Below, one piece after another: positions 2,464 to 31,162 of a stretch of 34,451 bases of DNA. The DNA lies in assembly GCA_018653605.1 (NCBI GenBank), contig JABHYY010000027.1:1-34451 (forward strand). Direction: 5' to 3'. The stretch is from an archaeon. Its GTDB lineage: Archaea; Nanobdellota; Nanobdellia; SCGC-AAA011-G17; GW2011-AR17. Position numbers and translations under genes: made by a program. The stretch's first letter is position 1. Each line of letters opens with the position of its first letter. The notes beneath the pieces were generated by a model. It was not told where the DNA came from. It searched no databases and saw only the letters and a list, made by a program, of their open reading frames with translations.

Positions 2464-3129
2464 ATGAAGTTAAACAAAGATTTTGTTTATTTAATTGGAA
2501 CTATTTATGGTGATGGTTATATTAAAGATGGAACCAAATCCAAAAGAGATTTATCAAGAGATTATAAAATTAGTTTTGAATTGACTGATATAAATTTTTT
2601 AGAAGAGATAATATTGCCCATATTTAAAACAATAATAAAAACAAAATCAAAAGTAAGAACTAGAAAAAGAAAAAACAAACAAAGGAGTGGTATTTTAGAA
2701 ATTAGAAATAAAAAACTATACCTTTTTTTAACTGAAAACCTCAAAACACACAAAGGTCCCAAAACAAGAGACGTTAAAATTCCTAAAATAATGAGAAATT
2801 GGCCTAATTCATTAAAATCTGAATTTATAGCTGGATATTTTGATACTGATGGAGGATTTAGAGGGAATACAATAGGTTTTTCAACAAAAACAAAAGATTT
2901 CCAAGAGTATACAATACAAATACTTAGAGAAAAAGGAATAATTTCTTCAAAAGAAAAATGGTTAAACAAAAAATATAATGAATATTATTATGGAATAAGA
3001 ATTAAAAAAGACAATATAGATAAATTTTTAAATACCTTCAGATTACGAAACAGTAAGAAACTAGAAAGTATCAATGCTAGATTCCCATGCACGGGTGCCG
3101 GAGCGGTCAAACGGGCTGGAAGATGTTAA
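2464..3129 (+). CDS. LAGLIDADG homing endonuclease, two motifs
   Basis: LAGLIDADG-like helices 'VYLIGTIYGDGYI' and 'FIAGYFDTDGGF'; the last 13 residues are encoded by the 5' half of tRNA-Leu. Confidence 0.9.
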   Translation: MKLNKDFVYLIGTIYGDGYIKDGTKSKRDLSRDYKISFELTDINFLEEIILPIFKTIIKTKSKVRTRKRKNKQRSGILEIRNKKLYLFLTENLKTHKGPKTRDVKIPKIMRNWPNSLKSEFIAGYFDTDGGFRGNTIGFSTKTKDFQEYTIQILREKGIISSKEKWLNKKYNEYYYGIRIKKDNIDKFLNTFRLRNSKKLESINARFPCTGAGAVKRAGRC

Positions 3130-3461: not shown

Positions 3462-4022
3462 TCAAAAATAAAGGATCTTAATTCTTTTCTCAATTCTATT
3501 TGTCATTTCAGCAAGAACCTTTGGTTCATCAAAATTTACCCAAACATCATAAGGAATTAAAAAGCCTTCAACAATATAGGACACAATAACTCTTCTAACA
3601 AAATCATCATCATCTAACCCTACATGCTCTTTCAAATAAGATTTTATCTCTAAAAATTCCTTCAAACTAACATGGTCCCAAAAATCCCTATAAACCAATT
3701 CAAACTTTTTCTTATATTGATTCATGTCAACAATTTCTGAAAACAAAACAACCTTTGATTTACATCTTCTTTGCAATTCTTCTTTATATTTTTTAAAAGA
3801 AAAATTTTGTTTAGCAAGAATTGATGCATTTGTATCAGCAATAATTTTAACATAATTCTTACCAACAAACTTTTCTTCAATCTCCTTAAACTCTATAAAC
3901 TTAGGAAGTTCTGTAAATTCATCTAATCTTTCACCATTAAAAATTTTAGCTAAATCTACATCAAAATCTAACTTACCATTCTTCAACACCCTTGGTGGAC
4001 ATTCCCAACTAAAGTATATCAT
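3462..4022 (-). CDS. Uncharacterised protein, paralogue of the upstream gene (WECPPR / ADTNASIL motifs)
   Basis: Shares 'F/Y-x-WECPxR' and 'K(I/F)(I/L)ADTNxxIL' with the 250-aa ORF; start overlaps that ORF's stop (ATGA). Confidence 0.75.
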   Translation of the reverse strand: MIYFSWECPPRVLKNGKLDFDVDLAKIFNGERLDEFTELPKFIEFKEIEEKFVGKNYVKIIADTNASILAKQNFSFKKYKEELQRRCKSKVVLFSEIVDMNQYKKKFELVYRDFWDHVSLKEFLEIKSYLKEHVGLDDDDFVRRVIVSYIVEGFLIPYDVWVNFDEPKVLAEMTNRIEKRIKILYF

Positions 4023-4771
4023 CTTCTACCTCCTTCATACAAAACAAATAACCATGGACCTCTATTCTTATTTCCTAAATAACAATTAGCTAAAACAGGA
4101 AATGTAAACATTGCCTCATTTGGTATTGCAACAGGATTTTGAAACCAAGCTTCACGAGATAAGGCCGTCCTAATAACATATTCTTCAGCAGCATAACTAC
4201 TAATGGTCCTTATCCCCAGTTCTATTAGTCTTTCATCCATTTCATTCACTCCAGTATGTTTTAATAATTCGTCTAATTCACCCTTAAATTTATTTTTTCT
4301 TAAATATTGAGTTTCAGGGACATTATCTCTCCTAAGAGCAAAACTATACTTAACTCTATTAAACACTTCCATATACTCCCTATTAAACTCACAAAGAATT
4401 TTAGAAAAAGGGAAAACTCTAATCACACCATTTGAAATCTCATCAGCCTTGTCTTGTAGTTGTTGAGAAAAATTTGTCATAAACCTACTAACCTGCCTTC
4501 TTTTAGTATCACTATCAACAGTTGCAGGATACAAAATCAAAGGGTTAGTATCAGCTAAAAATTTATAATAATTAACTTTGATTCCATCTTGCCTCAAAGG
4601 CAAAATGACTCTTTCAACAAACTCTCTTTCTAATTCAGATAATTTAACCATCCTAGTTTTTTCAACATCATCAACCCAATCACATTCATATTCTAAATCT
4701 CCTGCAACTTTCAAATCAGTTCTAATAGGACATTCCCAATTATAGAAAGTTATTGGCCTGCCATTATCCAA
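4019..4771 (-). CDS. Uncharacterised protein (WECPIR / ADTNPLILYP motifs); 5' end uncertain
   Basis: Long ORF; coding-like sequence continues upstream in frame (LIVFIDVRDYFVLNEKRTAIEDRVFLGN) with no ATG start; listed start is TTG. Confidence 0.7.
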   Translation of the reverse strand: MDNGRPITFYNWECPIRTDLKVAGDLEYECDWVDDVEKTRMVKLSELEREFVERVILPLRQDGIKVNYYKFLADTNPLILYPATVDSDTKRRQVSRFMTNFSQQLQDKADEISNGVIRVFPFSKILCEFNREYMEVFNRVKYSFALRRDNVPETQYLRKNKFKGELDELLKHTGVNEMDERLIELGIRTISSYAAEEYVIRTALSREAWFQNPVAIPNEAMFTFPVLANCYLGNKNRGPWLFVLYEGGRR

Positions 4772-6465: not shown

Positions 6466-7227
6466 TTATCTAATATATATAGCCTTAACAAACTTCTCTC
6501 TAATCAACCCAAGAATTAACACTAAAACCAAAACTCCAAGCACCATACCAACCCAAGCAAACCCAAAAAAGCTAGAAGTAATACTCCTAACAAACAAAAC
6601 TCCTAACAAAGCCAAAGCAAGACTAAAGCAAACAAACAAACCCAAGAAAGGAACAAACACCTTAACAAATCTCTTTCTAACCAATAATCTAAATCCTTTC
6701 AAACTCTTAATAACACTTTTCTTAACCAACAACACACCAAGAGTATACCATACAAAACTTATAACAAAAATCAAAATTAAATACACAGCAAGACTTAAAA
6801 AATCCCACCAAGAGTTAAATGAAAACAATAACAAAGTAAACACTTTATTCAAAATGTAAACAAGGACTACAACAAAAGGCAAACCAACTAAAAAATATTT
6901 TAAAAAATATCTCAAACTAAACTTCTTATCCAACAAAATAGAAAATGTTCTTCCTTGTGAAAGCAAAAATAACAAGTACCACCCCAATGGCAAAACTATA
7001 ATGATAAAAAAATAAGCTAAGTAAACAAGGCCAGAAAAACTTTGAACCAAAGTTTCAAACTGCATCAAAGTTGCATAAGTATTATCAGTCAAATTCAAAG
7101 AATCAAACTGGACAGTATACTCTTCAATCTGCCCCATCAAAATTCCAACTTTCATTTTAACATAAACAGCTAATAAGAAAGCCAATCCCAAGGCAACAAC
7201 ATCATACAAAAAAGGTCTCCACTTCAT
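6466..7227 (-). CDS. Polytopic integral membrane protein
   Basis: Multiple hydrophobic helices across 253 aa; same strand and just downstream of the giant secreted-protein genes. Confidence 0.75.
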   Translation of the reverse strand: MKWRPFLYDVVALGLAFLLAVYVKMKVGILMGQIEEYTVQFDSLNLTDNTYATLMQFETLVQSFSGLVYLAYFFIIIVLPLGWYLLFLLSQGRTFSILLDKKFSLRYFLKYFLVGLPFVVVLVYILNKVFTLLLFSFNSWWDFLSLAVYLILIFVISFVWYTLGVLLVKKSVIKSLKGFRLLVRKRFVKVFVPFLGLFVCFSLALALLGVLFVRSITSSFFGFAWVGMVLGVLVLVLILGLIREKFVKAIYIR

Positions 7228-7283: not shown

Positions 7284-10200
7284 TTAACTTGAAACAACTG
7301 CAGAACAAATTCCTTCTCTAGAACTTCCTAAGATTCTTACATCATCATCATTTTCTAGACCACCACTTTCACAATCTTCTTTAAATCCTTCCCACATTGT
7401 AGTCCCATATTCAAAGTGCCAAGCTTCTCTACTATATCTTACCCAACCAACCTCATACATAATATTAGTCAACTCATTACTAGAATCCATAGAATGCAAT
7501 TCACCATCAGAATCATAATACTGGATATCTACAGCTCCCCCCTGTACATGAGGACAACCACTTCCATCAGTACCAGGGTCACAAGCTATATTCCCATTTC
7601 CACTTTGATACAAATCCCAAAAGTATAATTGATCATCATAACTCCTATAAGCTGAAATAACATTAATATTATAACCCACATCTTCAAACTCTTCTTCAGC
7701 CACTAACAATTTTTCATAAGCTTCAGAAGTCAACATACAACCATCACCAGTACATTCAACTGAATCAATATCTACAACCACTACATTAAAAACTCCTTCA
7801 GAACCACCACAATAAGAGTTATACAATTCATCAACATCCTGAGCATTAACATTTTCAACATAATTAGGATCACCAGAACAAGCAACACTTCTATCACAAG
7901 AAGGCCAACCATTATAACCTCTTAACCCAGCATCCCAACCAGTATAAGTTTTTTTATTCCCTGATTGTCCACTATAACAACAGTATTCATTACCATCTTC
8001 ATACTGATCTTTTCTATATACCAAATGACCAATACCTAAAATAATATTACACTCCATATCATAAGCATTATCACCAGAAGAACAACTTTTACCATTAGTA
8101 GAAGCTTCAGTTAAAATTGCACCACCACTATTAAACCAATCACCATGTGAACCTAAGTTTAACTGCATTACACCATAATCATTAGTAGAACTTCCATAAA
8201 CTTCACTTTGAGAATCACAATCAATTCCACTATCATCACAATGTTTAAAACTTGATTCTTGTTGAGCAACTTTCAAAGCAAGTTTTTTTCCTTCAGCATC
8301 TAAACCCAATTCATCAGCAACTTCACAAATTTTCTGAACAATTAATTTTTGATTAGCAGTATAACTACTAGCACTAGCATCATTAGAACCACTAGAATCA
8401 CCAACCTCACTACAAACACCACCACTATAACTACAAACTTTACCAAACTGACTAGTACAAATTTCAGACTCACACCCCTCTTGATCATCACTTAAATCAG
8501 TACACTCATCAGCATCTTTACAAGAATAACAATAATCATCAACAGAATACTTCTTCTCAACATAATAACAAGTACTACCAACATCATGACAACTATCAAC
8601 ACCACAAAAACTAACCCAACCATCACCACAAGATTCACAATCAAAAACAATTTGTTCCTCAAGCTCTTCTGTGCTAAAAGACAAAGTCCTCTTCAACAAC
8701 TCACTATCATACCTATCCAAGACAAGCAACTCAACTTCATCATCTCTACTTCCTGCAGTATAACCACAAATAACCTTACCACTATCTTCCTCACACTCTC
8801 TGCCACCTATGTAAGCTTTATCATTAGCTAACAAATTAGTAAACTCAAATCTAAATTCATCACCAACATCAACAACAAACAATAAATCATTAGTTACATC
8901 CTCTTCATCAGACTGGCCCTGAGATATTTTTAATCCAGTGTATTCAATATCCCCTCTACCTTTAACTTCACAAGCACCAGGAACAAATGACACTGCTTCT
9001 GCAAGAGAATACTGACCAGCAGCAGCATACTCAAAACTCATTGTATCTTCAATAAACACACCCCATTTTTGAATTAAATCAACAACATTTTTACAATTTC
9101 TTTTCTCTTCATCTTTATGCTCAGCCAACAACCTAGTAAATTCTGAAGAACTTTCTTCATCAGCCAAATAACTATCCAACCCAAGTGCTTGCTTACTCAA
9201 GTCCCAATTAGTTTCAGCTAATTCATCAGCAACAATTTCATTTTTCTCAGCATCCCTAATACTAAAACTACCTGAGTTAAGCCAACAATAACCAAGGAAC
9301 CTTCCAACATCATCATAATCACAAGTACCAATCATTCCCCAATCACCAGAAATTCCTTGACCCTTTCCAGGATTATCAACACTACAAACTCTTTGCACAC
9401 CAGTAGACAAAGCACCAAATTCATAAGGCAACAAAGAAGCTCCTCCAACATTTGCATTAGAAACATCATTCAAAGCAGGACTCATAGTTGCAGCATCAGG
9501 ATAACACTGTTCAGCACTAGAAATATTTTTTAATACCTCTCCAGCAACTAAACTATCTTTCATATAATCCAATGCAAACGAAGTACTAACCATTCCAAAG
9601 CCACACTGTTCTTGACCATTAATTGTAATACATAACTCATCAAACCCACTCTGTGTTACACAGTCCATAGTTTCATCAGCCATTCCAGCCTTCTCAATTG
9701 TACCACTAGTACCACCACATTCACTAGTCAAACCATAAGTCTGACCAGTCAAAGAGTTTCTCAAATAAACAGAATAAACAACCCTATCAATGTTAGCATT
9801 ATCACCAGCATAGATATGATAGAAAACTTGGTAAGCACTCTGTCCTAAAGTTTCTGAATAAGGTTTAACAGTCATATGTCCAGTAAACTGAGTAGGATCT
9901 TCAGGTGTTGCAATTTGATCAATAAAATCTCCAAACCAAGGAGTCTTAGCATATATTGCTTGCTTACAAATTTCAGTACCAACCTCTTGCATACTTCTTC
10001 CTCTAAATGCAGCAAACGCTTGGTTAGAATATTCAGTTGTAAAGTAAGTAAATGAGGATTTCACATTTTCCATATTCTCTTTAAACTGGAAGAACTCTCC
10101 ACCACCAGCTTGATCACCAGCACCAAACATCTTACCACCAAGGAAATCAAGTATTCCACCACTACCCTGGAAAATTGCAACTATCTCTCTAGTAAACAAC

Positions 10201-13200
10201 TCACACATATACAAACTATAAATACTATCACAAATTCCAACATACTCACCATCGAACTTTGCTGTCTCTAAACATTGAACCATTCCATCCACTTGTGATT
10301 CCCAGAACTTCAAACTAGCAAGTACACCAGTTAAACAAATAGGAACAGGATCACCACTTCCTTGAGGAAGAACAACAGATCCAACAAACCCACTCTGAAC
10401 AACATCATCAACATACCATCTTCCACCCAAGTTAAACCTTGATGGTGGACACATTACAGGATCACAAACAGTAAACAACAATTTACAATCACTAGGATTC
10501 ATAACTTCATAACATCCAGCAACACTACCAGTTTGTACACCAGAAGATTTTCCACTACTTACAGGAAAATCATGATTATCAATTGTAACTCTAGTATTTT
10601 CATTAAACTCAGTTCTTACAAACTGATGTATATGTGAAACATATTCATTATACATTGTAGTACTCAAACTAATTTCCGTTTCATGATGCACTTGCACATC
10701 ATCAGTTGTACATAACTTTCCATCAGCACCAACATTCCAAACAGAGAACCTACTAGCTTCATTTGTTTTTGAATACTCTTCAATCTTAACAAAATTACCA
10801 TCTTCATGAGGCAAACAATAAGGCATTCCAGAAAATTCACCAGTTCCCCAAATTTCAATAGTTGCATCATCAGCCCAGGTTTGTCTCAACTCACCAGAGT
10901 TAAATGCTTCCTCTCCCATGAAAATAACTTCTTTAGTTGATGTTATATACAACTTCTGTCCACTTCTAGTAGCAAGCTCTTGACTAACTACTGAAGCACT
11001 TTGTAATACTGCAGAATCAAAAGCTGCAAGCTGAGTATCAATAGTTGTTATAATTCCATCATAACCTTCACAACTTCCAGCACTTGTTTTAGTATAAGTT
11101 GCTTTCCATTCAGTTAAATAAGTTTTCAAATCAATAGTACTCATAACACTAACTTCGACTGAAGAACCACTATCAGTATAAACAATTCTATCTCTTGTTG
11201 AAGAACCAGTAAATATCTTTCCTGCTGACCTTATTGTCGCACTTTCAGATTCACACTTTTTTTCAAATGTAACAATATCATTAAGTATTGGATAACCTGC
11301 AACATCAACATCAAGTTCACCACCAGAAACATGTTGTTCATAAATACCGTTAAACATATTTTCTCTAGCATCCTCATCCAAACCATCAGCATTTTCTAAA
11401 GCTTCAGAAGCAGCAATACAAGCAGTAGTTCTTTGATCTAAATTATTCCCACCATAACCAGTTGTTAAATCATTAAGATACTGTTCATTCCCCGGTTGCA
11501 TCTCAGCACTTAACCTATTTTGTGCACCATAGAAAGCTTGATATTCTTGTTTTGTAGCATCAGACATAAACACACCAGCACCAACATACTCTTCACAATC
11601 CTCCAAACTCCCATTAAACTTACCACTCAAATCACTTTCCCAATTACCATAAATCCCAGCATCAGCATCATCCCTAGCCTGTCCATAAGCATCCATATCA
11701 TTTTCAATATCACTTGAATGATCCAACATACACTCATCATAAGTATTATACTCTCTAGTAGAATAATCCCCACTACTTCTTTCATGACAATAAGACTGCC
11801 AACCACTAGCACCATCAGGTCCAGAGATTGCATCACCACGAGCTTGTGCAGAAGTTGAACCAAAACTACTCTTTAAAGTTACAAAAGCAAACACAGCATA
11901 ACAAACCTTATTCCAATTTGTAACAAGCTTATCCAAAAAGTCAACAGTTTTCTCTAACTTCTCTTTCAAACTTTTAAACTTCTCTAACTTTTCATCAATC
12001 TGTTCAGGGTTCAATTCAAAAGCTCTTTGCTCAATAGGAATATGAATTGAAAAATTAGTTTTACTTTTCAAAGTTTCACCAGAACCAGGAATGATAGTCA
12101 AATGCACTTCCTTCTTAACATCAATATCCTTAATTTGAATTTGATGACTACTCAATGTAGCAGTCCCACCCTCAGCAACACTATCTTTAGATTTACTAGA
12201 ACTATACCCTTGAGCATCTTCAAGAACCTCTTTAGTAAAATAAACATAATCATCTTTAATACTACTAATCAACCAATTTACATTCTCACCATTATCATAA
12301 ACAGCAGAAGTAAACAAGTAATCACCTTCATAATAAGTTTCACTAATTCCATTGTCACTAATCACAGCACTAGTTAACTCTTCATCACTAGCATGTTCAA
12401 TTCTTAACAACTTAACTTGAACTTGCCTTGCAGAATCATCAATAGTAACTTCACCATAACTAAAATCACCAGACATAGTATTCATTAACTCAACAACTTT
12501 AGCATTAATATCTGAATCACCAACATACTGTCCTCTATTATCAACACGAGTGTAATAGTGTAAAGCTTTTTCATTAGCAACCATCTTATCATTTGCAGAA
12601 TCAAAATTACTAGCTAACAACTCATACAACTCACCAAGTTTAACCTCACCAAGATCCAGATAAGAAACTCCTTCTAAAGTTTCTTCATCACTAAAATCTT
12701 CAACCAAAACTTTATACTCAGCAATTGCAGAACAAATCAACTGATTCAAAACATTATCATCCAACTGAGCACTCTCATCAAATACAGTAGGCAACTCATC
12801 TAAATAATAAAACCCAATATCATTACAAGGATCACCAGACCCATACTCTTCAATCACAATAGTTTCACCATCAATAGAATAAAAATATCCAACAGGCAAA
12901 ATACTAACCAAAACTTCTTTCACAGTATACCCATCAACCATATTAAACCTATTTGTAGAGTCTAAAGCATTAGCAACATTAGTAACATCAACTCTAACCC
13001 CATACTGATTAAACACACTATCCAACTCATTCACAGGAACAGAATCAATTGTTTTATCAGTATAAATTATACTATCTCCACTCCTTGCAGAAGAATAAAA
13101 CTGTCTATTCAAATCAGTAGACTCACCTGACATACCCATAACAGTTGTAATAGTTTTCTTGTTACCTTTTTTATCTCTAATCTCCAACACATACTCAGTT

Positions 13201-14222
13201 CCACCACTTCCTCTTTGTTCATACAAATTTGAAACAGTCCAAGTTGAACCAGGGAAAAGAGACATATCTTCATTCAAAACCATTTGATAAGAATCACCAT
13301 CTACCATAACACTAGCAACAGCTCTTTCCTTTGCAGGATCTTTCAAAGAATCCAACCTAACCCTAAACTTAGAATTAGTCAAAGCAACCTCTTCAAGATC
13401 ACCCAAGTCAAAATAATTTGAAGTTTCACCAACATTCAAAGTTAAATCAGCAATAGCTCGAGGAGCACCAATGATTGGCCAGAACAAATCTTTGTTACTA
13501 TAAATTGTCAAATCAACTTGATTATCCATGATCTCTTTAGCACGAATAATTCCTCTTCCACCAAAAAAAGTATACCTACTACCTTCAGACTGCAACTTAT
13601 CCTCCCACTCATCCACATCCTCATCCTCAGGCAAAACTAAATAAGTTTGAGCCAAAGTAAACAACCTTTGCGCTTCAGTAAAATGAATCTCTGCACTAAA
13701 AGTCAAATTAACTTCATCAGGCATTTCAATTTCATTCTCTTGTTGTTTCAATGTAATCACAAGATAACCCAAAGTATCCAAATCCTGCTCAAGTGGCTTA
13801 ACATACTTAGGCTCACCACGAACAGCATCTTTTGTTTGAATATCAGCAGGCTTAACTTTAACTTTTTCAACTTCAATACCACCATACAAAGGTTCAGTTC
13901 CATCTTCATACCCAGTCAAAGTATTAACTAAAGTACCAGCAGTCAAACCAGAAAGAAACGCATAAACTCGAACATCATTATCAGCAAGTAAATTAGAAGT
14001 CAAAATTGTAGGCTCATAACTTCGAACAAAAATAGGAATTGTATCACCAGTATCATCCTCTTCAAAATTTTGCAAAGCCCTTTGTTCTTCTTCATCTTCC
14101 CAATCTAAATTTTCACCAGCAACAGCCTCTAATTCTTCATCTGAAATATCATCAGCAACAGCAAATGGCATGCTTACTAACAAAACCAATACAAATATTG
14201 CTAACCACCTTTTTACATTCAT
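7284..14222 (-). CDS. Giant secreted protein (2312 aa) with C-terminal SLT-like lytic transglycosylase and VanY/M15-like peptidase domains
   Basis: Signal peptide MNVKRWLAIFVLVLLVSMPFAVADD; domain motifs given in the two domain features below. Confidence 0.9.
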   Translation of the reverse strand: MNVKRWLAIFVLVLLVSMPFAVADDISDEELEAVAGENLDWEDEEEQRALQNFEEDDTGDTIPIFVRSYEPTILTSNLLADNDVRVYAFLSGLTAGTLVNTLTGYEDGTEPLYGGIEVEKVKVKPADIQTKDAVRGEPKYVKPLEQDLDTLGYLVITLKQQENEIEMPDEVNLTFSAEIHFTEAQRLFTLAQTYLVLPEDEDVDEWEDKLQSEGSRYTFFGGRGIIRAKEIMDNQVDLTIYSNKDLFWPIIGAPRAIADLTLNVGETSNYFDLGDLEEVALTNSKFRVRLDSLKDPAKERAVASVMVDGDSYQMVLNEDMSLFPGSTWTVSNLYEQRGSGGTEYVLEIRDKKGNKKTITTVMGMSGESTDLNRQFYSSARSGDSIIYTDKTIDSVPVNELDSVFNQYGVRVDVTNVANALDSTNRFNMVDGYTVKEVLVSILPVGYFYSIDGETIVIEEYGSGDPCNDIGFYYLDELPTVFDESAQLDDNVLNQLICSAIAEYKVLVEDFSDEETLEGVSYLDLGEVKLGELYELLASNFDSANDKMVANEKALHYYTRVDNRGQYVGDSDINAKVVELMNTMSGDFSYGEVTIDDSARQVQVKLLRIEHASDEELTSAVISDNGISETYYEGDYLFTSAVYDNGENVNWLISSIKDDYVYFTKEVLEDAQGYSSSKSKDSVAEGGTATLSSHQIQIKDIDVKKEVHLTIIPGSGETLKSKTNFSIHIPIEQRAFELNPEQIDEKLEKFKSLKEKLEKTVDFLDKLVTNWNKVCYAVFAFVTLKSSFGSTSAQARGDAISGPDGASGWQSYCHERSSGDYSTREYNTYDECMLDHSSDIENDMDAYGQARDDADAGIYGNWESDLSGKFNGSLEDCEEYVGAGVFMSDATKQEYQAFYGAQNRLSAEMQPGNEQYLNDLTTGYGGNNLDQRTTACIAASEALENADGLDEDARENMFNGIYEQHVSGGELDVDVAGYPILNDIVTFEKKCESESATIRSAGKIFTGSSTRDRIVYTDSGSSVEVSVMSTIDLKTYLTEWKATYTKTSAGSCEGYDGIITTIDTQLAAFDSAVLQSASVVSQELATRSGQKLYITSTKEVIFMGEEAFNSGELRQTWADDATIEIWGTGEFSGMPYCLPHEDGNFVKIEEYSKTNEASRFSVWNVGADGKLCTTDDVQVHHETEISLSTTMYNEYVSHIHQFVRTEFNENTRVTIDNHDFPVSSGKSSGVQTGSVAGCYEVMNPSDCKLLFTVCDPVMCPPSRFNLGGRWYVDDVVQSGFVGSVVLPQGSGDPVPICLTGVLASLKFWESQVDGMVQCLETAKFDGEYVGICDSIYSLYMCELFTREIVAIFQGSGGILDFLGGKMFGAGDQAGGGEFFQFKENMENVKSSFTYFTTEYSNQAFAAFRGRSMQEVGTEICKQAIYAKTPWFGDFIDQIATPEDPTQFTGHMTVKPYSETLGQSAYQVFYHIYAGDNANIDRVVYSVYLRNSLTGQTYGLTSECGGTSGTIEKAGMADETMDCVTQSGFDELCITINGQEQCGFGMVSTSFALDYMKDSLVAGEVLKNISSAEQCYPDAATMSPALNDVSNANVGGASLLPYEFGALSTGVQRVCSVDNPGKGQGISGDWGMIGTCDYDDVGRFLGYCWLNSGSFSIRDAEKNEIVADELAETNWDLSKQALGLDSYLADEESSSEFTRLLAEHKDEEKRNCKNVVDLIQKWGVFIEDTMSFEYAAAGQYSLAEAVSFVPGACEVKGRGDIEYTGLKISQGQSDEEDVTNDLLFVVDVGDEFRFEFTNLLANDKAYIGGRECEEDSGKVICGYTAGSRDDEVELLVLDRYDSELLKRTLSFSTEELEEQIVFDCESCGDGWVSFCGVDSCHDVGSTCYYVEKKYSVDDYCYSCKDADECTDLSDDQEGCESEICTSQFGKVCSYSGGVCSEVGDSSGSNDASASSYTANQKLIVQKICEVADELGLDAEGKKLALKVAQQESSFKHCDDSGIDCDSQSEVYGSSTNDYGVMQLNLGSHGDWFNSGGAILTEASTNGKSCSSGDNAYDMECNIILGIGHLVYRKDQYEDGNEYCCYSGQSGNKKTYTGWDAGLRGYNGWPSCDRSVACSGDPNYVENVNAQDVDELYNSYCGGSEGVFNVVVVDIDSVECTGDGCMLTSEAYEKLLVAEEEFEDVGYNINVISAYRSYDDQLYFWDLYQSGNGNIACDPGTDGSGCPHVQGGAVDIQYYDSDGELHSMDSSNELTNIMYEVGWVRYSREAWHFEYGTTMWEGFKEDCESGGLENDDDVRILGSSREGICSAVVSS
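7380..7760 (-). other. D-Ala-D-Ala carboxypeptidase/endopeptidase-like (VanY, peptidase M15) domain within the 2312-aa CDS
   Basis: NVISAYRSYDDQ...; HxxGxAxD zinc motif as PHVQGGAVDI; ExWHxE motif as EAWHFEYG; boundaries approximate. Confidence 0.85.
7800..8350 (-). other. SLT-like (lysozyme-fold) transglycosylase domain within the 2312-aa CDS
   Basis: KVAQQESSF (catalytic-Glu context), YGVMQLN (GxMQL motif), AGLRGYNGW...DPNYVENVN (YNxG...Y-x-x-x-V motif); boundaries approximate. Confidence 0.82.
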
Positions 14223-16228
14223 CTTAACTCAGGTTCCACCATTCCTAATGAAGCTTCATACAAAGCATAAGCCTCTTCAACATCTTCAGCACTATCAACT
14301 TCCATTGGCGCTGCAATGTAAAATGTAACATGCGTTGCATCATAAAGATCAGCCCTGTTAGGCTCCCACACCAACTCAACACTACCACTCAACACACTAT
14401 CAAGCTCATAGTCACTCATATCAACATCAACACAACTTTCACCCATCCCAAATATTCCAGTCAACCCAGACACAGGATTTGAAGTACAACTTTGCAAAGT
14501 TTGCGCAGGCACATTAATATCAAACCCACCCTCTTGCATCATTACACCTTGAACATCATAAGTTCCAGGAATAATCTCCAAAACACCAGTACCATCATCA
14601 GGATAAAACACACTAGTTGAATAACCAGTACTCTGTTCAGTCAATCCAATGTAAGCTGTTTCATCACTCTTCAAACTTCTAGTATTTCCATCACCATCCA
14701 CAACCTTAATATCATAACTCAAATTCACTTCCTGCTCTAAAATCACAGTAACAGTACTTTCTTCAAAAGTTGAAACCATCTCTCTACCTTCAACATACCC
14801 TTCTTTGTTCACAACAACAAAACCATTAGAACAAACAGGGAACATTGCATAAAGAGAAGCATCACCAATTCTACCTGAAGTAATACCCATATCACAAACA
14901 TAGTTTATACACTCAAAACTAACATCAGCATCAACTAAATCAATAAGCCCACCATCACTCTCAACACCAGAAGCATAAACAGTCATTAGAGTAACAGCTT
15001 CATCACAAATAGCATCACTCTCAACCTCACCAAAATCTTCATACACAATTTCATTAGTTCTAGCTTGATTATTATTAATTATAACCATTGTAGCAAACTG
15101 AAAAACATACCCTGTATCATCATCACTTAAAGTAATCAAAACAGGAAACTTAACATCATAAATAAATTTGTAATCCTTCAAACAAAACAAACTTCTTAAC
15201 ACAGCACCAATCATACCAGAGTCACCACCAGAGTTAGAAGTCATAACACCATCTTCATTTGGATAAACACCCATCTCAAAAGGCCAAGAAGTAAAATACA
15301 ACAAATTTGCACTATACTCTTTAAACCCAGAACCTAACACATCCCACTCATAATAATTCTGCATAACTTCATCACTTATACTATAATCTAAACCACCAAT
15401 TTTAATGTAAGGAATATTATTTGCCAAACCTTGCTTCAACTCTTCCTGCACTTCTTCAACATCCCACTCTTCTTTATCACAATCAAAATTAGTTTCAGAC
15501 ATTGGAACACCCTCTTGAAGGAACATCACATCATAAGCCATATCTTCCAAATAAAAATCTTCATTCTCTTTCATTTGAATTGTAACTGCAGCTTCATACA
15601 TTTCACCCAAAGGCACATCAACACTTTCATAAAAATAAGGAAACTCAAAAACAAACTCATCCACTGCAACCTTAACAGGATAATCAACAGTAAACAAAAC
15701 TTCATCATTTAAAATTTCAACTTCAGTATAAACATCACCAGCAGAAATGTTATACTCTTCATACAAAGAAAAGTTTGAAGCACACCTAGCTAAGTTTTCA
15801 TCAACATAAACACCAAGCTCAACTTCCATCTCTTCTTTCAAAGGAATCTGTGAATATTGCACAGCATTAGAAGCTTCATAAAACCAATAAGTTGTTTTCA
15901 TACCAGAACCTTCAAAGATTTCTAAAGAATTTGAAAAAGGATTGTAAACAGTAGAGGGTATTGGATCATCAGGAAGATCAATATAACCACCCTGCATACC
16001 TAAAATATCAACAGCTTCAATAGTTAATTCTTCAACACAAGCACTAATAGACTCATGCACTTCTTCAGCTTGACTTGGAATTGCTAAACTATCAGCAAAC
16101 CCTTGTTCCCATTCAGATTGAAACAATTCAGCCCGAAAATAATAACCTAAAACAACTAGTGAAACTACAAGAATACCAATTATAATAAACAAAGTAACCT
16201 GCCCTCTTTTTTGCATATAAAAATTCAA
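14219..16228 (-). CDS. Membrane-anchored extracellular protein (669 aa)
   Basis: N-terminal 'MQKRGQVTLFIIIGILVVSLVVLGYYF' anchor/signal; carboxypeptidase-regulatory-like segment (YDIKVVDGDGNTRSL...GVLEIIPGTYDVQGVM); stop overlaps the start of the 2312-aa gene (ATGA). Confidence 0.8.
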   Translation of the reverse strand: MNFYMQKRGQVTLFIIIGILVVSLVVLGYYFRAELFQSEWEQGFADSLAIPSQAEEVHESISACVEELTIEAVDILGMQGGYIDLPDDPIPSTVYNPFSNSLEIFEGSGMKTTYWFYEASNAVQYSQIPLKEEMEVELGVYVDENLARCASNFSLYEEYNISAGDVYTEVEILNDEVLFTVDYPVKVAVDEFVFEFPYFYESVDVPLGEMYEAAVTIQMKENEDFYLEDMAYDVMFLQEGVPMSETNFDCDKEEWDVEEVQEELKQGLANNIPYIKIGGLDYSISDEVMQNYYEWDVLGSGFKEYSANLLYFTSWPFEMGVYPNEDGVMTSNSGGDSGMIGAVLRSLFCLKDYKFIYDVKFPVLITLSDDDTGYVFQFATMVIINNNQARTNEIVYEDFGEVESDAICDEAVTLMTVYASGVESDGGLIDLVDADVSFECINYVCDMGITSGRIGDASLYAMFPVCSNGFVVVNKEGYVEGREMVSTFEESTVTVILEQEVNLSYDIKVVDGDGNTRSLKSDETAYIGLTEQSTGYSTSVFYPDDGTGVLEIIPGTYDVQGVMMQEGGFDINVPAQTLQSCTSNPVSGLTGIFGMGESCVDVDMSDYELDSVLSGSVELVWEPNRADLYDATHVTFYIAAPMEVDSAEDVEEAYALYEASLGMVEPELR

Positions 16229-17056: not shown

Positions 17057-18982
17057 CTATTCAGCAAAAAATAAGAAACTAAATAATCCAGTTATTGCAC
17101 CAGTTGCTCTTGGCCTTCTTTGTTGTTGAGTTCTTGAATCTGCAGTTGTAGAAGTTCTAGTTGGTCGTTCAGTAGTAGCTGTTCTTGTTGGAGCAGTTCG
17201 AGTAGGTCGATCTGCAGTAGCAGTAGCAGTTCGAACAGGTCGATCACTATCAGCAGTAGTCCTTGTAGGCCTTGTTGAAGTTGTACCATCAGCAACAGTT
17301 CGAGTTGGTCGATCAGTAGTAGATTCTACAGCTGGTCTTGTTCGAGTTGGTCTGTCAGTATCAACAACAGCAGTTCGAACAGGTCTATCACCAGCAACTT
17401 CAGGTCTTGCTTTCAAAGGAGTAGTACCAACACCTCTCTCTGCAAACTTAGCTTCTAAACCTATTTTCTCGCCCTCAAAACTTTCAACTTTTCTATCTTT
17501 AAACTGCATTTTACTTGTATCTCTGCCAGCCATTTCCATCTTTTCAAAAACAACATCAACATCACTTTCCAACCTTTCCTTAAACCTTGTATCACCCTCA
17601 CCAACCTCTTCAATCATTTTAGCTTTCATAGCCATTTCCCTACCACCACCAACCATTCCACCCACTTTTTTTTCTAATTTTTCAAACTGAACACTATCCA
17701 TTTTATCTTTATTTTTTTCAACAAACTTTTCACTTTTAGTAGCAGTCTTTGTCATCTTTCTATCAACTCTTTTCATATAATTAGAACACTGTTCATCTTC
17801 AGTTTCAACACACAATTGTTGAGCTTGTTTATACTCTCTTTCCCTCTCTTTCATCTGCTTTTCTAAAACTTTAGCATTACCTTCTTTAGTAACAGCAAAA
17901 GCTCTTTCAAAACCTTCATTCCAACTTTTCAAAAAACCAAAACTACTATCAGCACCAAAATTAACATCAGTATCTATATATTCAATACAATAACCTTCAT
18001 CACAATAAAATCCTTCAGAACAAGGATAAGCAGAATCACAATATTCCAAACCCTCGTCAGCCGCAACCTCTGAAGCCAAATCACAATACCCTTCTAAACT
18101 ACAAAAATAACCTTCATCACATTCAATATCATCAAAACAAACTTTTAATTCTTCTAACTCACAATAACCATCAACACAAAATTCTCCTTCATAACAATCA
18201 TACTCATCAACACAAGATAAATAAGAAGATTCATAATCAGTACTTGCAGAAGAAGAAGAAGAACTAGAAGTAACACTCTCTTGAACACAAACACCACTCA
18301 CACAATCTAAATCCTGATCACAATCTAATCTAGTCACACAAACAGCACCTTCCTCACCAGTTTCACAATCATCAGAACAATAATAGGGTGAGTTCACATT
18401 TTTTTCAGCACCTTTACAAAATCCATCACCACAAACAAACCCAGCACTTGTTCCAGAAGTAGCACAGTAACTTCCTTCACATTCATAATCATCACCATAT
18501 AAGGAAACACATTCAAAATCAGCTAAACACTCAGAAGGTTCAGTATCAAAAACAGCATCACTATATACACAAGCTCCAGCAGAACTGCAACTTGCACCAT
18601 AAATCCCATAGTATTCATAATAATAAGGACAATCATCATCAACAATACAACCTTTTGCATCAGCAATACAAGCACCAGCAGGAGAACACAAACCAGAACC
18701 TGAAGCAGTACAATCAGAATCAGAACTACACGCACTTGCAGAAATTTTTTCTTTTACAATACAATAATTATCACTGTCACAAATAGTTCCATAAATTTCA
18801 TAATAATCATAATAGTCATTACAATGAGAATCTTCATAACAAGTATACTCATCATTAATACATGCACCAGTTGGAGAACATAAAGGTGCACTTGGAGAAG
18901 TACATTCACTATCTTCAACACAAGCTAAAACTAAATTTAAACTTAAAACTAATACAAACAAAACTAATAACCCTCTTTTCAT
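17057..18982 (-). CDS. Secreted Cys-rich repeat protein with a C-terminal (D/E)RP(T/V)RT repeat tract and hydrophobic tail
   Basis: Signal peptide MKRGLLVLFVLVLSLNLVLAC; repeats such as CVDEYDCYEGEFCVDGYC / CFDDIECDEGYFCSLEGYC / CDSAYPCSEGFYCDEGYC; C-terminus GAITGLFSFLFFAE. Confidence 0.85.
   Translation of the reverse strand: MKRGLLVLFVLVLSLNLVLACVEDSECTSPSAPLCSPTGACINDEYTCYEDSHCNDYYDYYEIYGTICDSDNYCIVKEKISASACSSDSDCTASGSGLCSPAGACIADAKGCIVDDDCPYYYEYYGIYGASCSSAGACVYSDAVFDTEPSECLADFECVSLYGDDYECEGSYCATSGTSAGFVCGDGFCKGAEKNVNSPYYCSDDCETGEEGAVCVTRLDCDQDLDCVSGVCVQESVTSSSSSSSASTDYESSYLSCVDEYDCYEGEFCVDGYCELEELKVCFDDIECDEGYFCSLEGYCDLASEVAADEGLEYCDSAYPCSEGFYCDEGYCIEYIDTDVNFGADSSFGFLKSWNEGFERAFAVTKEGNAKVLEKQMKEREREYKQAQQLCVETEDEQCSNYMKRVDRKMTKTATKSEKFVEKNKDKMDSVQFEKLEKKVGGMVGGGREMAMKAKMIEEVGEGDTRFKERLESDVDVVFEKMEMAGRDTSKMQFKDRKVESFEGEKIGLEAKFAERGVGTTPLKARPEVAGDRPVRTAVVDTDRPTRTRPAVESTTDRPTRTVADGTTSTRPTRTTADSDRPVRTATATADRPTRTAPTRTATTERPTRTSTTADSRTQQQRRPRATGAITGLFSFLFFAE
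17120..17400 (-). repeat. Degenerate coding repeat encoding (D/E)RP(T/V)RT units
   Basis: Recurrent plus-strand gttcgaacaggtcgatc / gttcgagttggtcgatc words; protein has DRPVRT, DRPTRT, DRPTRT, TRPTRT, DRPVRT, DRPTRT, ERPTRT. Confidence 0.8.
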
Positions 18983-19014
18983 AAATAATTAATAGAATAA
19001 TAAGTATAAAAACT

Positions 19015-21228
19015 TTACGCTATCAAACCAAACCATTTCAAAAACTTAATCCACATGGAATCATCAGGATTTTCAGCAGCAGCCATAGGAGGAGGAGTAT
19101 AATCACCACATGAGATTATAGTACACGATGCATCAGCTACAAGACCACTAGGAAGACAAGTGCAAGTATTACATCCATCACCTGCATCAAAAGTATCACC
19201 AGGAGTACAATAAACACTATCTGCTTCAGCTTGATTTTCCATCTCCTCTTCTATATTTCTATACTCTTGATAACCTTCATCCCTCTCAGAATCATCACTC
19301 GGATCAGAACAATCAGGATCAGGCAACAAATATCTTCCTTCTAAAATTTCACAATCTAAAGTGTAATTAACAACATAATGTGTTGTTATTGGAGGCAGTC
19401 CAGCACAACCATACTTCCCATTACACAATTCTTTTTGCATAGTTTCAGTTAATGGATCAATCCAACCATTTTGATCCAAATCACAACCACAAACATAATC
19501 AATTGCATAATCATGATCAACATCACAACCACCAGTAAAATCAGCAGTAAAATCCCAATCATTGTCTCTTCTATCACCACACCTATTCATTTCAGTTGTA
19601 TCATCATTACTTTCACAACCAGGATCACCATTAACATAATATGCATCATAATTTATTTTACAATATTCATTACATGAAAGCAAATCAACTTCACATTCTA
19701 AAGGTTCAACCATAATTTCACCATCAAAACAACCACCAGTAAAATCATAACCACCATCACCATCATTGTCAACACCATCACTACAAGCTGGAGTTTGTAA
19801 AGTTGGTTCTATCGTGAATATTGGTGCAAGATCAAGACTTTCAATTCCTTTATCTTCAATTATTGAAGCATCAGGATCATAAGAATAAACAAACCATCTA
19901 TCTCCCATCTCTGCCCTAGTACCAATAGCAAATTCATCCTTTCCATCGCCATCAACATCTCCAGTTGCAACAGCTGAAGGATAAGAAGGAATTTCATCAT
20001 CAGTAATCATGCAATCATAAGAAGAACTTCCTCCTCCACAAAACATTAGTTCTAAATTATTTTCAGAAAAATCATAAGCATACCATCTAGGATGACTTGA
20101 ACTCCAATCCAAATAATCAACAGTAACAATAAATTCATCAATATTATCTCCATCAATATCACCAAATTCAACACCATTTGCAAACCATCCTTCACCAAAA
20201 TCAAAAGTAAAGGCCCCACCATAGTATTCAAAACATTTTCCAGAAGCTTCATAATAAAAATTTAAGGAATCTGAAACATCACTTGTAACAACTCCTAAAA
20301 TAGGATTACTCCAACCCTCACCACCGAAAGCAATATCCAAAAAATCACCTTCAGAATTAATTTCACATATTTCGTCAATATCATCTTCAGTACTTCCTTG
20401 AAGAACAACTACTTTATTCCCCTCAGCACTAGTTTTTATTAAAGCAAACTCATCATTTCCAGTAGATCTACTAAAATCTCCTGTTGCAATTTTTGAAGTA
20501 TAATAATTTGAAAATTCAACACCAGTTGAAGTACATTCATTTGTTTTTGAAGTTGGAGCTCCACCACAAAAAAGCAAATCCTCCTCTGCACTCCCATAAT
20601 CATATACAAACCAATCTCCAACAGTATTTAAAGAAGTACTCATACCAACAATAATTTCTTCATCACCATCACCTTCTAAATCTCCAGAAGAAACACTTGT
20701 AGAATAACCATCATTCAAATCAACAATACTTCCCAGAAAACCTCCTTGGCCACCACTATAAACTCTAACTCTATCATTCTCATTAGTAAAAACAGTAATT
20801 AAAAGTTCTTCACCAGCTTGCCGATTATCAATTTCTCCAAAAACAATATCAACTGCATAAACCCCATCATCCCAACTACTACCAGTAGAAAGAATTTCTT
20901 CAAAATTCCTTTCTCCAGAACCAGATTTTATACCACTACCAAACATTTCAGAAGGAGAATAATCAACAACAAAAACACCTTTATCTAATTCGTCACTCTC
21001 AGAAATTGAAAAAGCTAATTCATCATCACTATCTCCATCAAAATCCCCAAATTCCATATCTTTTACATAATTATTATCCCAAGTTGAAGCATCATTATCA
21101 GTAGGACCTCCAGTCATAATTTTCTCAACTTTTAATTTCCCAATATAACTTCCACTTTTCCCTTCCTCAGCAGAAACCACCAAACTACAAAGAACCATAA
21201 AAGCTAAAATTAAAGCAACCTTTTTCAT
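19015..21228 (-). CDS. Secreted FG-GAP/integrin-alpha-like beta-propeller protein with Cys/Asp-rich C-terminal modules
   Basis: Blade motifs FGDFDGDSDDELAF, SGDLEGDGDEEIIVG, FGDIDGDNIDEFIVT, TGDVDGDGKDEFAIG; signal peptide from MKKVALILAFMVLCSLVVSAEEG. Confidence 0.85.
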   Translation of the reverse strand: MKKVALILAFMVLCSLVVSAEEGKSGSYIGKLKVEKIMTGGPTDNDASTWDNNYVKDMEFGDFDGDSDDELAFSISESDELDKGVFVVDYSPSEMFGSGIKSGSGERNFEEILSTGSSWDDGVYAVDIVFGEIDNRQAGEELLITVFTNENDRVRVYSGGQGGFLGSIVDLNDGYSTSVSSGDLEGDGDEEIIVGMSTSLNTVGDWFVYDYGSAEEDLLFCGGAPTSKTNECTSTGVEFSNYYTSKIATGDFSRSTGNDEFALIKTSAEGNKVVVLQGSTEDDIDEICEINSEGDFLDIAFGGEGWSNPILGVVTSDVSDSLNFYYEASGKCFEYYGGAFTFDFGEGWFANGVEFGDIDGDNIDEFIVTVDYLDWSSSHPRWYAYDFSENNLELMFCGGGSSSYDCMITDDEIPSYPSAVATGDVDGDGKDEFAIGTRAEMGDRWFVYSYDPDASIIEDKGIESLDLAPIFTIEPTLQTPACSDGVDNDGDGGYDFTGGCFDGEIMVEPLECEVDLLSCNEYCKINYDAYYVNGDPGCESNDDTTEMNRCGDRRDNDWDFTADFTGGCDVDHDYAIDYVCGCDLDQNGWIDPLTETMQKELCNGKYGCAGLPPITTHYVVNYTLDCEILEGRYLLPDPDCSDPSDDSERDEGYQEYRNIEEEMENQAEADSVYCTPGDTFDAGDGCNTCTCLPSGLVADASCTIISCGDYTPPPMAAAENPDDSMWIKFLKWFGLIA

Positions 21229-21296
21229 ATTACACACCATCTTTTTATTAATTAATAGAAAAGAACTATTTAAAGTTTATTGTTTAAAATAAAATA

Positions 21297-22891: not shown

Positions 22892-25800
22892 CTACTTTAG
22901 TAAATCATAAAGTTGTGTAGATATAACAGTTGGATGCACTGACCTTAGCTGTTCAGGTTTAATCAACACCTTCTTACCACTCATATCAACAAGTAAACCA
23001 CCAAACCCCTTTTTTGAAACAACAATCTCAACAACCTTACCAACAGTTTCACCATCAGCACTATATACATCATTACCCAACAACACTTCAGAAGACTCAG
23101 CCTTCTTTTTCTTAAACAACATTTTTTCAAGTAAATTTCTAAAGAACTCTTTAACCATTTCAAAACCATAAAGGAATTCAATTTTAATAAATCTCAAATT
23201 TAAAGAAACACCTTCATGCTGCATAACTTTTCTTCCAACAAACACTCCAACTACAATAAAAACAATAAATCCTAAAACATAATATATCCAACTAAAATTT
23301 TTAGAAGTTGGATCTCTAGGTGCCTGATAAACTAACTCACTCTCTTCAATTTTAATCTCACCACTAATAGCCTCAAATTGCACATGAGCTTGACCATTTT
23401 CAACTTTCTCCAACATAACAAACACATCAAAGAAACCATCACCATCCAAATCAAGATTCTGTCCCTGTCCAACACTTAAAGTAACTTCCTGAGAATCAAT
23501 CACAAAAGTTGCACTAGTTAACTGTAAATCAATAATCTCTAAAGGATAAGTTTCAATTGAATCTTCTTGAATAATCTTAAGATTAATCTCTTCTCCTTCA
23601 TCCATAATTTCAATTAATTCTTTTACTCCTTCCTCAACAACCTCTTCTATTTTCTCTTCCTCTTCTTCATCCCCATCACAAACAGTATTATTATTCTGAT
23701 CTAAACAACACTCAATCCCATGCCTTATGTAAGGAGGATCACAAACAACCTTTTGTGTTGCACCACCAGTAATTCCACTTCCACCACCACTACTTCCACC
23801 ACCAGAACTTTCAACAGCACCTTCAACAACAAAACTATCATAAGCAGGTGCAGTTCCACCAGCCCAAGTTACAATAATTCTAAACCTATAATCACCATTA
23901 CTTGAAGGAGAAGTTAAAGTTGCAGTAAAGTTAGTAGTACTATTTGAACCAACATAAATTGTTTGTTGACCAGAAGTATAATTTGTATCTTCAGCATCAT
24001 TAGTAATCCAATAATCAATAATAAAATCTTGACCAATATCAGGATTTTGATTAATCACTGAAACAACAGTATCAAAATCAACAGAAACATCAACAGAAGA
24101 TAAAGCATAAACAGTTGCATCAGCAGGACCACCATAACCAGGAATTCTAACAGTAGGTCTATTAGAATAGAACACAGTTAAATCAGTAGTAGTTGCAGTA
24201 CCCAAAGCAAACTGATGATTTGAATTACTTGCAGCTTTATCAATCAGAGTCAAATTAGACAACATTGAAGAAACACCTTCAGACAAATTCAAAGTAAAAG
24301 CAGTACCATTCAAATCAGTATCAACATAACTAAAATTAGCAATATCCTCACTTCCAGAATTATACAATGTAACTGAAACATTATATGTAACATTCAAAGA
24401 AGTTTCATTAACATAAACAACATTCTTTACAATAACCATTTGTTTTCCAGCTTCAGTATCAGGTATAGTCAAATTTAACTCAGTAGAATTTGCACTAATC
24501 ACAGTTCCAGAATAAGAATCAGTTCCATTCACAGTTGCCACAGACAACAACTGATAAACCAAAGTATCCTCTCTAGTAAAATTTGCAAGATAACTTCTAA
24601 CAACAGAAGAGTTTGCATTCACAGTAGACAAATCATAAGACCTTGGATCATCAGTTAAATTAACAGAAGTTGCATCAGCCAACCCTCTGTTAGTAACTCT
24701 CAAAGTAATATTATAATTAATAGTAGAATTAGAAATATTGAAAATTGTAGCAACTTTATCCAAAACAAACAATGCAGAACCACCAATTGAAAAAGTATCA
24801 ATACAAGGAATATCAGAACCTTGATAAGAAGTACTAGCATTCAAAGTATAACTACCAGCACTCAAATTATAAATTAAAGTTTCATAAGACCCATCATCAT
24901 CAGTTGTCAAATTACGAGAAATGTTCAAAACACCATCTGAATCATAAACACTTGCATTCACACCAGTTGCAGCCAACACACCAGAAGCATTTGAAACATC
25001 ACCCTGTACTAAAACCAAAGCACCTTGCTGATAAGGCCCACCAACATTACAAGTAAAATTCAAAGTACTTAAATTAAAAAATTGTATAGTAGAAGTATTA
25101 GTCCTTTCATCGTTAACAATAACAGTCCAATTATAAGCACCAGCATCAGAAATTTCCCAACTATAACTCAAAGTTGTACCATTAGTTTGATTATAAGAAG
25201 TGTTCAAAAGAGAATAAGTTCCACTAGCATTCCCCCCATAGAACCAAACTGTAAGATTATTTAACCCAGTATCAACATCATACACAGTTGCATTCAAAAG
25301 AAGAGATTCTACATTAGAAAAAAGAGAATTATTAGAAGGATAATTCATAACAATTGTAGGGGCAGTATTTCCTTGAATAGTAATTGACCTCTGTTCAGTC
25401 ATGTTCAAATTACCAAAACTATCATCAGCATAAACTTGATAAGAATAATTTGCATCATCTAAAGCAGAAGTTCCATCCTTAGATTGATTAACATATAAAC
25501 CCCACAAAGTAGAATTAACTTTATACAAATTAGTAAAATACAACTGAGAAACTTCTTCATCAGTCAAACCATAATCAAGTAAAACAAACTCATCTAAAAA
25601 ACCATCAAAATACTGATCAGACCCAGTGTACCACATTCCTAAATAAACATTATCAATTGAAGCAGGCAAATCCTTAGAAGTAGAACTTGTTCCTTCACTC
25701 ACACCATTAACATACAACTCATGATCAGTAGCATTTCTTGAAACAAAAACAAAATGATTCCAACCAGTTCTTGTTGCATCATCCTCATTAATCAAACTCA

Positions 25801-30105: not shown

Positions 30106-30128
30106 AATATAAATAATATTTATATTAT
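30104..30128. promoter_or_regulatory. Perfect AT-only palindrome, candidate operator
   Basis: ATAATATAAAT-AAT-ATTTATATTAT: 11-bp arms, 3-nt centre; covers the RHH start codon and the topoisomerase stop codon. Confidence 0.6.
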
Positions 30129-31162
30129 TTAGTATTTAAAGCTTTGCTTTTGATTTTCTCAACCAAATTAGGTTCAATATAATGATTCAAAGTAACAGTA
30201 AAACTATCTTCCCACAACCCACTCTTCTTAGAAAACTTCTTATGCCCTAAACCCTGAGCCACTGACAAGAAAAACAAATTCATTTCATCCTTAGTACATT
30301 TCCTGTGCTCTTTCAAAAACTCCTTAGCTTTAGCAGTAGCATAATAAGACCTAATAATATGAGGATAAAACTCCTTCCCACAATAGTTCCTAAAAGCTAA
30401 CTTAAACATATGATCATTAAGAACATGTCCTCTATCACTAACAAAAACATAATCTTTACATTTTTTCAAACAGGCCTTCAACCTCTTAACATAAGAAGCA
30501 GGAAAAGTTTTTCTAATATTAATAGGAACACCATCTTTACCTATAAAATCAAAAACAACATCATTACCAACAATCTTAATATCCTTCTTCTTTAATGTTG
30601 CCAAACCTTTATGTTTATGTGCTTTGTAATAAATTTCATTCCCAACACGAATATGAGTTTTCAAAAGTGTATACATCGGCAAAGCCATATAATCTTCTTT
30701 GTTCCTTAATGCAGAAGTAACTTTCTTCTTTAATATAGGATAAACCTTTTCAAAAGCTTTAACTTTCTTATACTTTCTATCTTTAGCTTTAGCTTTTTTA
30801 TCCAAAGTGTAAACATAAGAATAAGTTCCACCTTTGTTCTGGTATATAACATCCCAATGCTCATTTGATGTTTGATCATGAACACACAAGTTTTTTGCAA
30901 ATAGAGAATAAGCTTTGTCTAACTTTCTACCATCTGGCAAAATGTTTATTCTAGCACCTTGTTCTTTTCCTTCTGAAAGCTGGCCCTTTAGAAACCTTGA
31001 ATCCTTTTTATCTATCAGAAAATCAAAGTTTTTATGAGCTTTGAAAAGTTTAATAACTTTTTTTGCTTCTGGGAAAGTATTTTTACTCTTTTTCCAAGAC
31101 TTTTTAGTTTTTTCATAAACTTGCAAATTTATTTTAATTCTAAGTGTTCCTGGTTGTAGCAT
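30125..31162 (-). CDS. DNA topoisomerase IB family protein
   Basis: THIRVGNEIYYKAHKHKGLATLKKKDIKI...FIGKDGVP; IIRSYYATAKAKEFL; VAQGLGHKK; LNHYIEP: R-K-R-H-Y active-site set in order. Confidence 0.88.
   Translation of the reverse strand: MLQPGTLRIKINLQVYEKTKKSWKKSKNTFPEAKKVIKLFKAHKNFDFLIDKKDSRFLKGQLSEGKEQGARINILPDGRKLDKAYSLFAKNLCVHDQTSNEHWDVIYQNKGGTYSYVYTLDKKAKAKDRKYKKVKAFEKVYPILKKKVTSALRNKEDYMALPMYTLLKTHIRVGNEIYYKAHKHKGLATLKKKDIKIVGNDVVFDFIGKDGVPINIRKTFPASYVKRLKACLKKCKDYVFVSDRGHVLNDHMFKLAFRNYCGKEFYPHIIRSYYATAKAKEFLKEHRKCTKDEMNLFFLSVAQGLGHKKFSKKSGLWEDSFTVTLNHYIEPNLVEKIKSKALNTK

Follow-up and report, generated by a model that had tools for sequence, protein, structure and literature searches.

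Organisation of the locus

The window (i.e., the whole 34,451-nucleotide stretch of archaeal DNA that we analysed) carries a gene for a giant secreted protein, which lies between genes for a prepilin-like protein and a membrane protein that we refer to as 'pre' and 'post', respectively (Table 1). The archaeal origin of the contig, already argued in the initial annotation, was confirmed by archaeal genes that Pfam detected throughout its length (TFIIB, eS8, S3Ae and S15), and bacterial contamination can thus be ruled out. A search against Rfam returned three tRNAs and nothing else, while scans for sigma-70-type promoters and terminators gave results at chance level.

The window also contains several other unusual genes. 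A second giant (22892-29956, minus strand; 2354 aa) has a signal peptide, N-terminal repeats and a Laminin_G_3 domain, and appears adhesin-like; it is rich in N-glycosylation-like motifs and carries a hydrophobic segment close to its C-terminus. A secreted FG-GAP protein that ends in a Pacifastin-like (protease-inhibitor) domain lies beside a Cys-rich secreted protein of 641 aa (together 17057-21240, minus strand). Two adjoining proteins (3462-4771, minus strand) are alike in sequence, starting near WECP.R, and have no convincing Pfam match. Further genes encode a LAGLIDADG homing endonuclease (2464-3129, plus strand), situated in an AT-rich stretch among minus-strand genes, the catalytic core of a eukaryotic-type topoisomerase IB (30125-31162, minus strand), and an archaeal member of the FmrO-type rRNA methyltransferase family (32729-33481, minus strand), relatives of which confer aminoglycoside resistance.

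Table 1 Coordinates of the giant gene, its domains and its two neighbours in the window
Feature	Position	Strand	Remarks
Giant secreted protein	7284..14222	(-)	2312 aa, 60 Cys
Signal peptide, residues 1-24 (hydrophobic stretch 3-21)	14151..14222	(-)	single hydrophobic N-terminal segment
N-terminal block, residues 41-365	13128..14102	(-)	conserved
Internal exchange slot, residues 366-600	12423..13127	(-)	variable region; TPR-like by eye in the window
Middle block, residues 601-845	11688..12422	(-)	conserved
Cys-rich core, residues 1090-1700	9123..10955	(-)	conserved; without PDB relative
Cys-rich linker module, residues 1859-1940	8403..8648	(-)	occurs, also in repeated form, in other giants of this family
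SLT/GH23 lytic transglycosylase domain	7818..8360	(-)	catalytic Glu1989 at 8256-8258
M15/VanY peptidase domain	7398..7760	(-)	His2225, Asp2232, Glu2266, His2269
'pre'	14219..16228	(-)	669 aa; N-terminal KRGQVTLFIIIG (class-III/prepilin-like); stop overlaps start codon of giant
'post'	6466..7227	(-)	253-aa membrane protein, about 7 hydrophobic segments; after giant

Two hydrolase domains at the C-terminus of the giant

The initial annotation had described the giant as a 2312-residue ORF with a signal peptide that ends in a lytic transglycosylase (SLT) domain and an M15 peptidase domain, both with their catalytic residues apparently intact. Profile comparison and motif residues and, for the M15 domain, Pfam bore this out: the two domains fill the last ~370 residues of the protein, the catalytic glutamate and the zinc ligands are in place, and the only SLT and the only VanY match in the window genome both fall within the giant.

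For the SLT domain, the window sequence alone scored 17.8 bits in Pfam against a cut-off of 21.3, and 21.8 bits when neighbouring matches were counted. Its motifs comprise Glu1989 (E-S motif), G-x-M-Q at residues 2017-2020 and Tyr2103 (C-terminal Y-N motif). In an alignment of 11 archaeal SLT tails, Glu1989 was invariant. When compared with the PDB, the profile of these 11 tails matched MltC, Slt70, MltE and goose lysozyme (8.6e-17 for the best, MltC-type hit and 4e-10 for Slt70). An AlphaFold model of the tail pointed in the same direction, as its SLT half resembled GH23 structures in Foldseek (probability 1.00, E 6e-3), with a GH23 chitinase as the best fold match. The assignment to the SLT/GH23 family therefore holds, and cleavage of murein glycan strands is the predicted activity.

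For the M15 domain, Pfam VanY matched the tail alone with 26.3 bits (E=6.8e-6) and the full-length giant with 23.8 bits, the cut-off being 25 bits, and the NCBIfam D-Ala-D-Ala dipeptidase model matched with E=1.7e-7, yet far under its own cut-off. The expected residues are present as H-x6-D (His2225, Asp2232) and E-x2-H (Glu2266, His2269). The M15 half was modelled with low pLDDT from an alignment that contained no homologues for it. It was also the only half of the tail to find phage matches by tblastn; these were phage endolysins or a carboxypeptidase, 29-37% identical to it. Among 102 genomes of the order, the other VanY matches lie in frames of 219-1055 aa, none of them giant-sized.

A conserved and widespread scaffold with two exchange sites

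Upstream of its terminal enzymes, the giant consists of a scaffold of ~1900 aa, which is conserved in the three blocks at residues 41-365, 601-845 and 1090-1700 and variable elsewhere. A search with the whole giant found relatives in 52 of 60 related genomes, while a profile of the core matched 247 stretches in GTDB contigs (nearly all sources being metagenome assemblies, with domains assigned by profile). Among the best 80 of these 247 matches, core identity ranged from 34 to 63% with invariant cysteines, and the records were named Woesearchaeota, Pacearchaeota, Nanoarchaeota/Nanoarchaeia or simply archaeon, apart from one on a contig binned as Omnitrophota. The latter (L152) encodes a giant core together with an SLT domain and is probably a misbinned archaeal contig. 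Weaker homologues were found class-wide, bringing the total to 197 of 371 genomes of the phylum; in 20 distant loci that we examined they were mostly single frames of about 1700-2300 aa. We also considered a known fold for the core and a viral origin of the scaffold, and rejected both: the core had no sequence relative in the PDB and its 1096-residue model (pLDDT 74.8) no clear fold match there, while searches of viral contigs returned no relative of the scaffold and comparison with viral folds gave nothing convincing.

Unlike the scaffold, the C-terminal tails could not be aligned among giants (mean column identity 6%). In 74 tails, Pfam detected SLT domains (14/74) as well as SGNH/GDSL, 3D, Amidase_3, M23, Amidase_2, NlpC/P60, DPBB_1 and SH3_3, which across relatives form C-terminal sets of NlpC/P60, Amidase_2, Amidase_3, SLT, SLT+M23, 3D+SGNH or, as a separate type, DPBB. 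Even within the window's own family, the SLT+M15 pair of the window is replaced by NlpC/P60 (L079), Amidase_2+SGNH (L093), 3D+SGNH (L082-L084) or SLT alone (L092). Pfam recognised no clear enzyme in three further tails of this family (L080, L081 and L085); by eye, those of L080 and L085 resemble a bacterial lysozyme-family protein and that of L081 a lambda-lysozyme-like and M15 pair, but Pfam confirmed neither, and both are left out of the argument here. Outside the family, more than half of the tails have no Pfam enzyme. A particularly close comparison is that of L084 and L085, whose cores are 91% identical and whose tails are 73% identical over ~300 residues, after which all similarity ends.

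In addition, we found a second, internal slot near residue 380, occupied in relatives by an SLT domain or a metallophosphoesterase (e.g., a calcineurin-like metallophosphoesterase between two conserved blocks in L082, L084 and L085). Our own SLT profile, iterated from four seeds and run on 87 giants, matched 28 of them, or about 27 once L093 was left out because the motifs were absent; 10 of these SLT domains are internal (within residues 370-840, including that of AR20, CP010426) and the rest C-terminal. In the window giant, the idea of a decayed SLT domain at residues 470-605 was rejected, as a profile-profile comparison with internal SLT domains gave a probability of only 0.1. In a tree of the core, the window falls into a fully supported group of four giants, each with a different type of tail, and the tree implies at least 19 changes in tail type, 9 in C-terminal SLT and 4 in internal SLT, counts which are approximate since tails scored as 'none' may hold unrecognised enzymes. 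These sequence comparisons establish the C-terminus of the giant as an exchange site for enzymatic domains. The terminal enzyme pair of the initial annotation is thus retained, but its picture of a lone protein is not: the giant is one version of a widespread scaffold that has two exchange sites and a prepilin-like partner.

A prepilin-like partner and an unfused version of the system

This partner, 'pre', has an N-terminus (KRGQVTxFIIIG) that appears prepilin-like by eye. It is present in 70 of 81 close loci (window counted). Of the 20 distant loci, 19 have it as the gene immediately upstream of the giant, and in the remaining one (L165) the contig ends inside the giant. Relatives of 'post' were less frequent (28/81 loci, window counted). 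The N-terminal signatures, read by eye, may point to a link with a type-IV-pilus-like system. One T2SSE-type ATPase is encoded elsewhere in the window genome.

In 11 of the 20 distant loci, the giant is followed by a ~185-aa gene with another prepilin-like N-terminus (KKxxxxxE-type start, by eye), and in all 11 a hydrolase gene lies next to this gene or one gene further downstream. In six of these loci a domain clearly of murein type exceeds its Pfam cut-off: M15_4 after an enolase gene (L160), SGNH+Amidase_2 (L163), deacetylase+SGNH+SLT (L165), SLT and then M15_4 (L168), M23 and then SLT (L171), and SGNH+SLT (L172). In the other five the hydrolases are weaker or less specific, namely SGNH under the cut-off (L159), DUF2272 (L161), a metallophosphoesterase (L164), SGNH+DUF218+metallophosphoesterase with a weak SLT region (L166) and a sub-threshold glucosaminidase (L170). 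These unfused loci belong to sister lineages of the window's group. That a similar kit is part of the giant in one lineage and encoded by separate genes in another is a classical gene-fusion argument that the parts share a function.

Probable target and possible role

We found no Mur ligase in the window genome (G000) and just four single matches among 61 relatives, so the window genome bears no sign of its own murein synthesis. Since, in addition, most of the exchanged domains are of murein type (SGNH, metallophosphoesterase and deacetylase domains not being murein-specific), the bacterial wall is the best-supported target. Of the targets proposed in the initial annotation, bacterial walls are hence favoured, while nothing was found in favour of pseudomurein; among the roles proposed with them, the sequence does not separate predation, attachment and defence.

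Our preferred reading, to which we assign a probability of roughly 0.6 from the sequence data, is that of a pilin-associated surface scaffold which presents interchangeable murein hydrolases to bacteria. Secretion and surface anchoring, the stalk, assembly in the manner of pilins, the encounter with a bacterium and the combined action of both enzymes are inferred. 'pre' (prepilin-like, with a single anchor) is encoded as an overlapping pair with the giant (with a Sec-type signal peptide) and would anchor or assemble the scaffold at the cell surface, possibly via type-IV-pilus-like machinery. The Cys-rich core would form a disulfide-stabilised stalk, the Cys-rich linker module may possibly bind the wall, and the enzyme tip would contact the bacterium, where SLT cleavage of glycan strands and M15 cleavage of stem peptides would jointly open the murein. 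Such an opening could serve the small archaeon for attachment, for uptake of material or for the insertion of other proteins, and exchange of tips between lineages would track a change of target bacterium or evade resistance.

Other explanations can account for part of these observations. The archaea might scavenge nutrients, as their small genomes suggest, using secreted or surface depolymerases to digest the murein debris of dead bacteria while leaving living cells unattacked, and an identical kit of domains (SGNH esterase, NodB-type deacetylase, SLT, M15 and M23) would serve this purpose. However, scavenging would not call for a ~1900-aa scaffold that has been inherited together with a prepilin-like partner throughout the class, and frequent exchange of tips is more in keeping with a target that changes than with a polymer that stays constant, which makes this explanation unlikely. 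Alternatively, bacterial-type enzymes may have been re-aimed at the archaeon's own envelope or that of an archaeal partner (S-layer glycoprotein or pseudomurein). The wide presence of the scaffold in the order would suit such a housekeeping or general-host role, and GH23 folds can work on chitin; on the other hand, a single site has received seven or more types of enzyme whose bacterial counterparts act on murein, the window genome yielded no Mur ligase, and the bonds cut by SLT enzymes and D,D-peptidases are, by established chemistry, absent from pseudomurein. We therefore regard remodelling of an archaeal envelope as distinctly improbable.

The prepilin-like genes could also belong to a DNA-uptake or conjugation-like machine, in which SLT domains (e.g., VirB1-like) are the usual wall-opening helpers. 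Yet scans of the window genes and of neighbouring genes turned up no relaxase, coupling protein or VirB4-like gene, the enzymes are carried on an extracellular scaffold, and an archaeon would have no need to breach murein in its own envelope; we accordingly give this explanation very little weight.

For most Woesearchaeota and Pacearchaeota it is obscure which organisms serve as hosts or prey. Should the device breach bacterial walls, its tip enzymes could be expressed and assayed on murein of candidate bacteria, such that a genome would predict the type of partner. It would then also represent a rare archaeal platform of exchangeable effectors and a source of archaeal murein-cutting enzymes. 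A broader and more tentative proposal, to which we give somewhat less than an even chance, is that of a class-wide archaeal contact device, coupled to pilins, which breaches bacterial walls and exchanges its tips in the manner of polymorphic-toxin effectors. If this is true, the spread of the device would imply that bacteria, and not archaea, are what many Woesearchaeota and Pacearchaeota live on or off.

Relation to known systems

Type IV pilus PilX-PilY1 operons pair a minor pilin with a tip protein, and the present loci are similar to them in that prepilin-like genes are co-encoded with a large secreted protein; PilY1 is not known to carry hydrolases that are exchanged. The catalytic SLT domain is homologous to those of bacterial GH23 enzymes (MltC, Slt70, MltE) and of phage wall-cutters (T7 gp16, tape-measure SLT), which differ from the window giant in their carrier protein and in the domain of life. 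The SPEARE proteins of Nanohaloarchaeota (PMC6642349) are likewise giant proteins on the surface of DPANN archaea, with a presumed action on a second cell, but their domains (serine protease, laminin-G adhesion and type III restriction-enzyme) were not found in the window giant by Pfam.

The core idea is not new, because a giant secreted transglycosylase of these archaea has already been published. The family fam00969 comprises Woesearchaeota and Pacearchaeota proteins that reach 3000 aa and contain a murein-like transglycosylase domain, proposed to bind, degrade or attach to bacterial walls (Castelle et al. 2021, PMC8204110). Our giants fit fam00969 in lineage, size, extracellular location and SLT domain (internal in the AR20 giant, CP010426), a likeness at the level of description. 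Wall-degrading enzymes in DPANN and other archaea have also been reported (Vigneron et al. 2022, PMC9723730), as have modular, domain-shuffled and bacteria-directed archaeal peptidoglycan hydrolases, many of them in Nanoarchaeota and two, from a haloarchaeon, shown to be bactericidal (Strock et al. 2025, PMC12352652). The latter survey demanded a known wall-binding domain in each protein, whereas the window giant uses a lineage-specific scaffold without one.

The accessible accounts of fam00969 name only the transglycosylase domain, and in the available parts of all three papers (PMC8204110, PMC9723730 and PMC12352652), with subscription literature little covered, we found no description of tip exchange, a second slot, 'pre' or unfused loci. 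Relative to these accounts of fam00969, the present analysis adds the M15 domain, the other hydrolases and a conserved scaffold encoded behind 'pre', with C-terminal and internal exchange sites and an unfused version in sister lineages.
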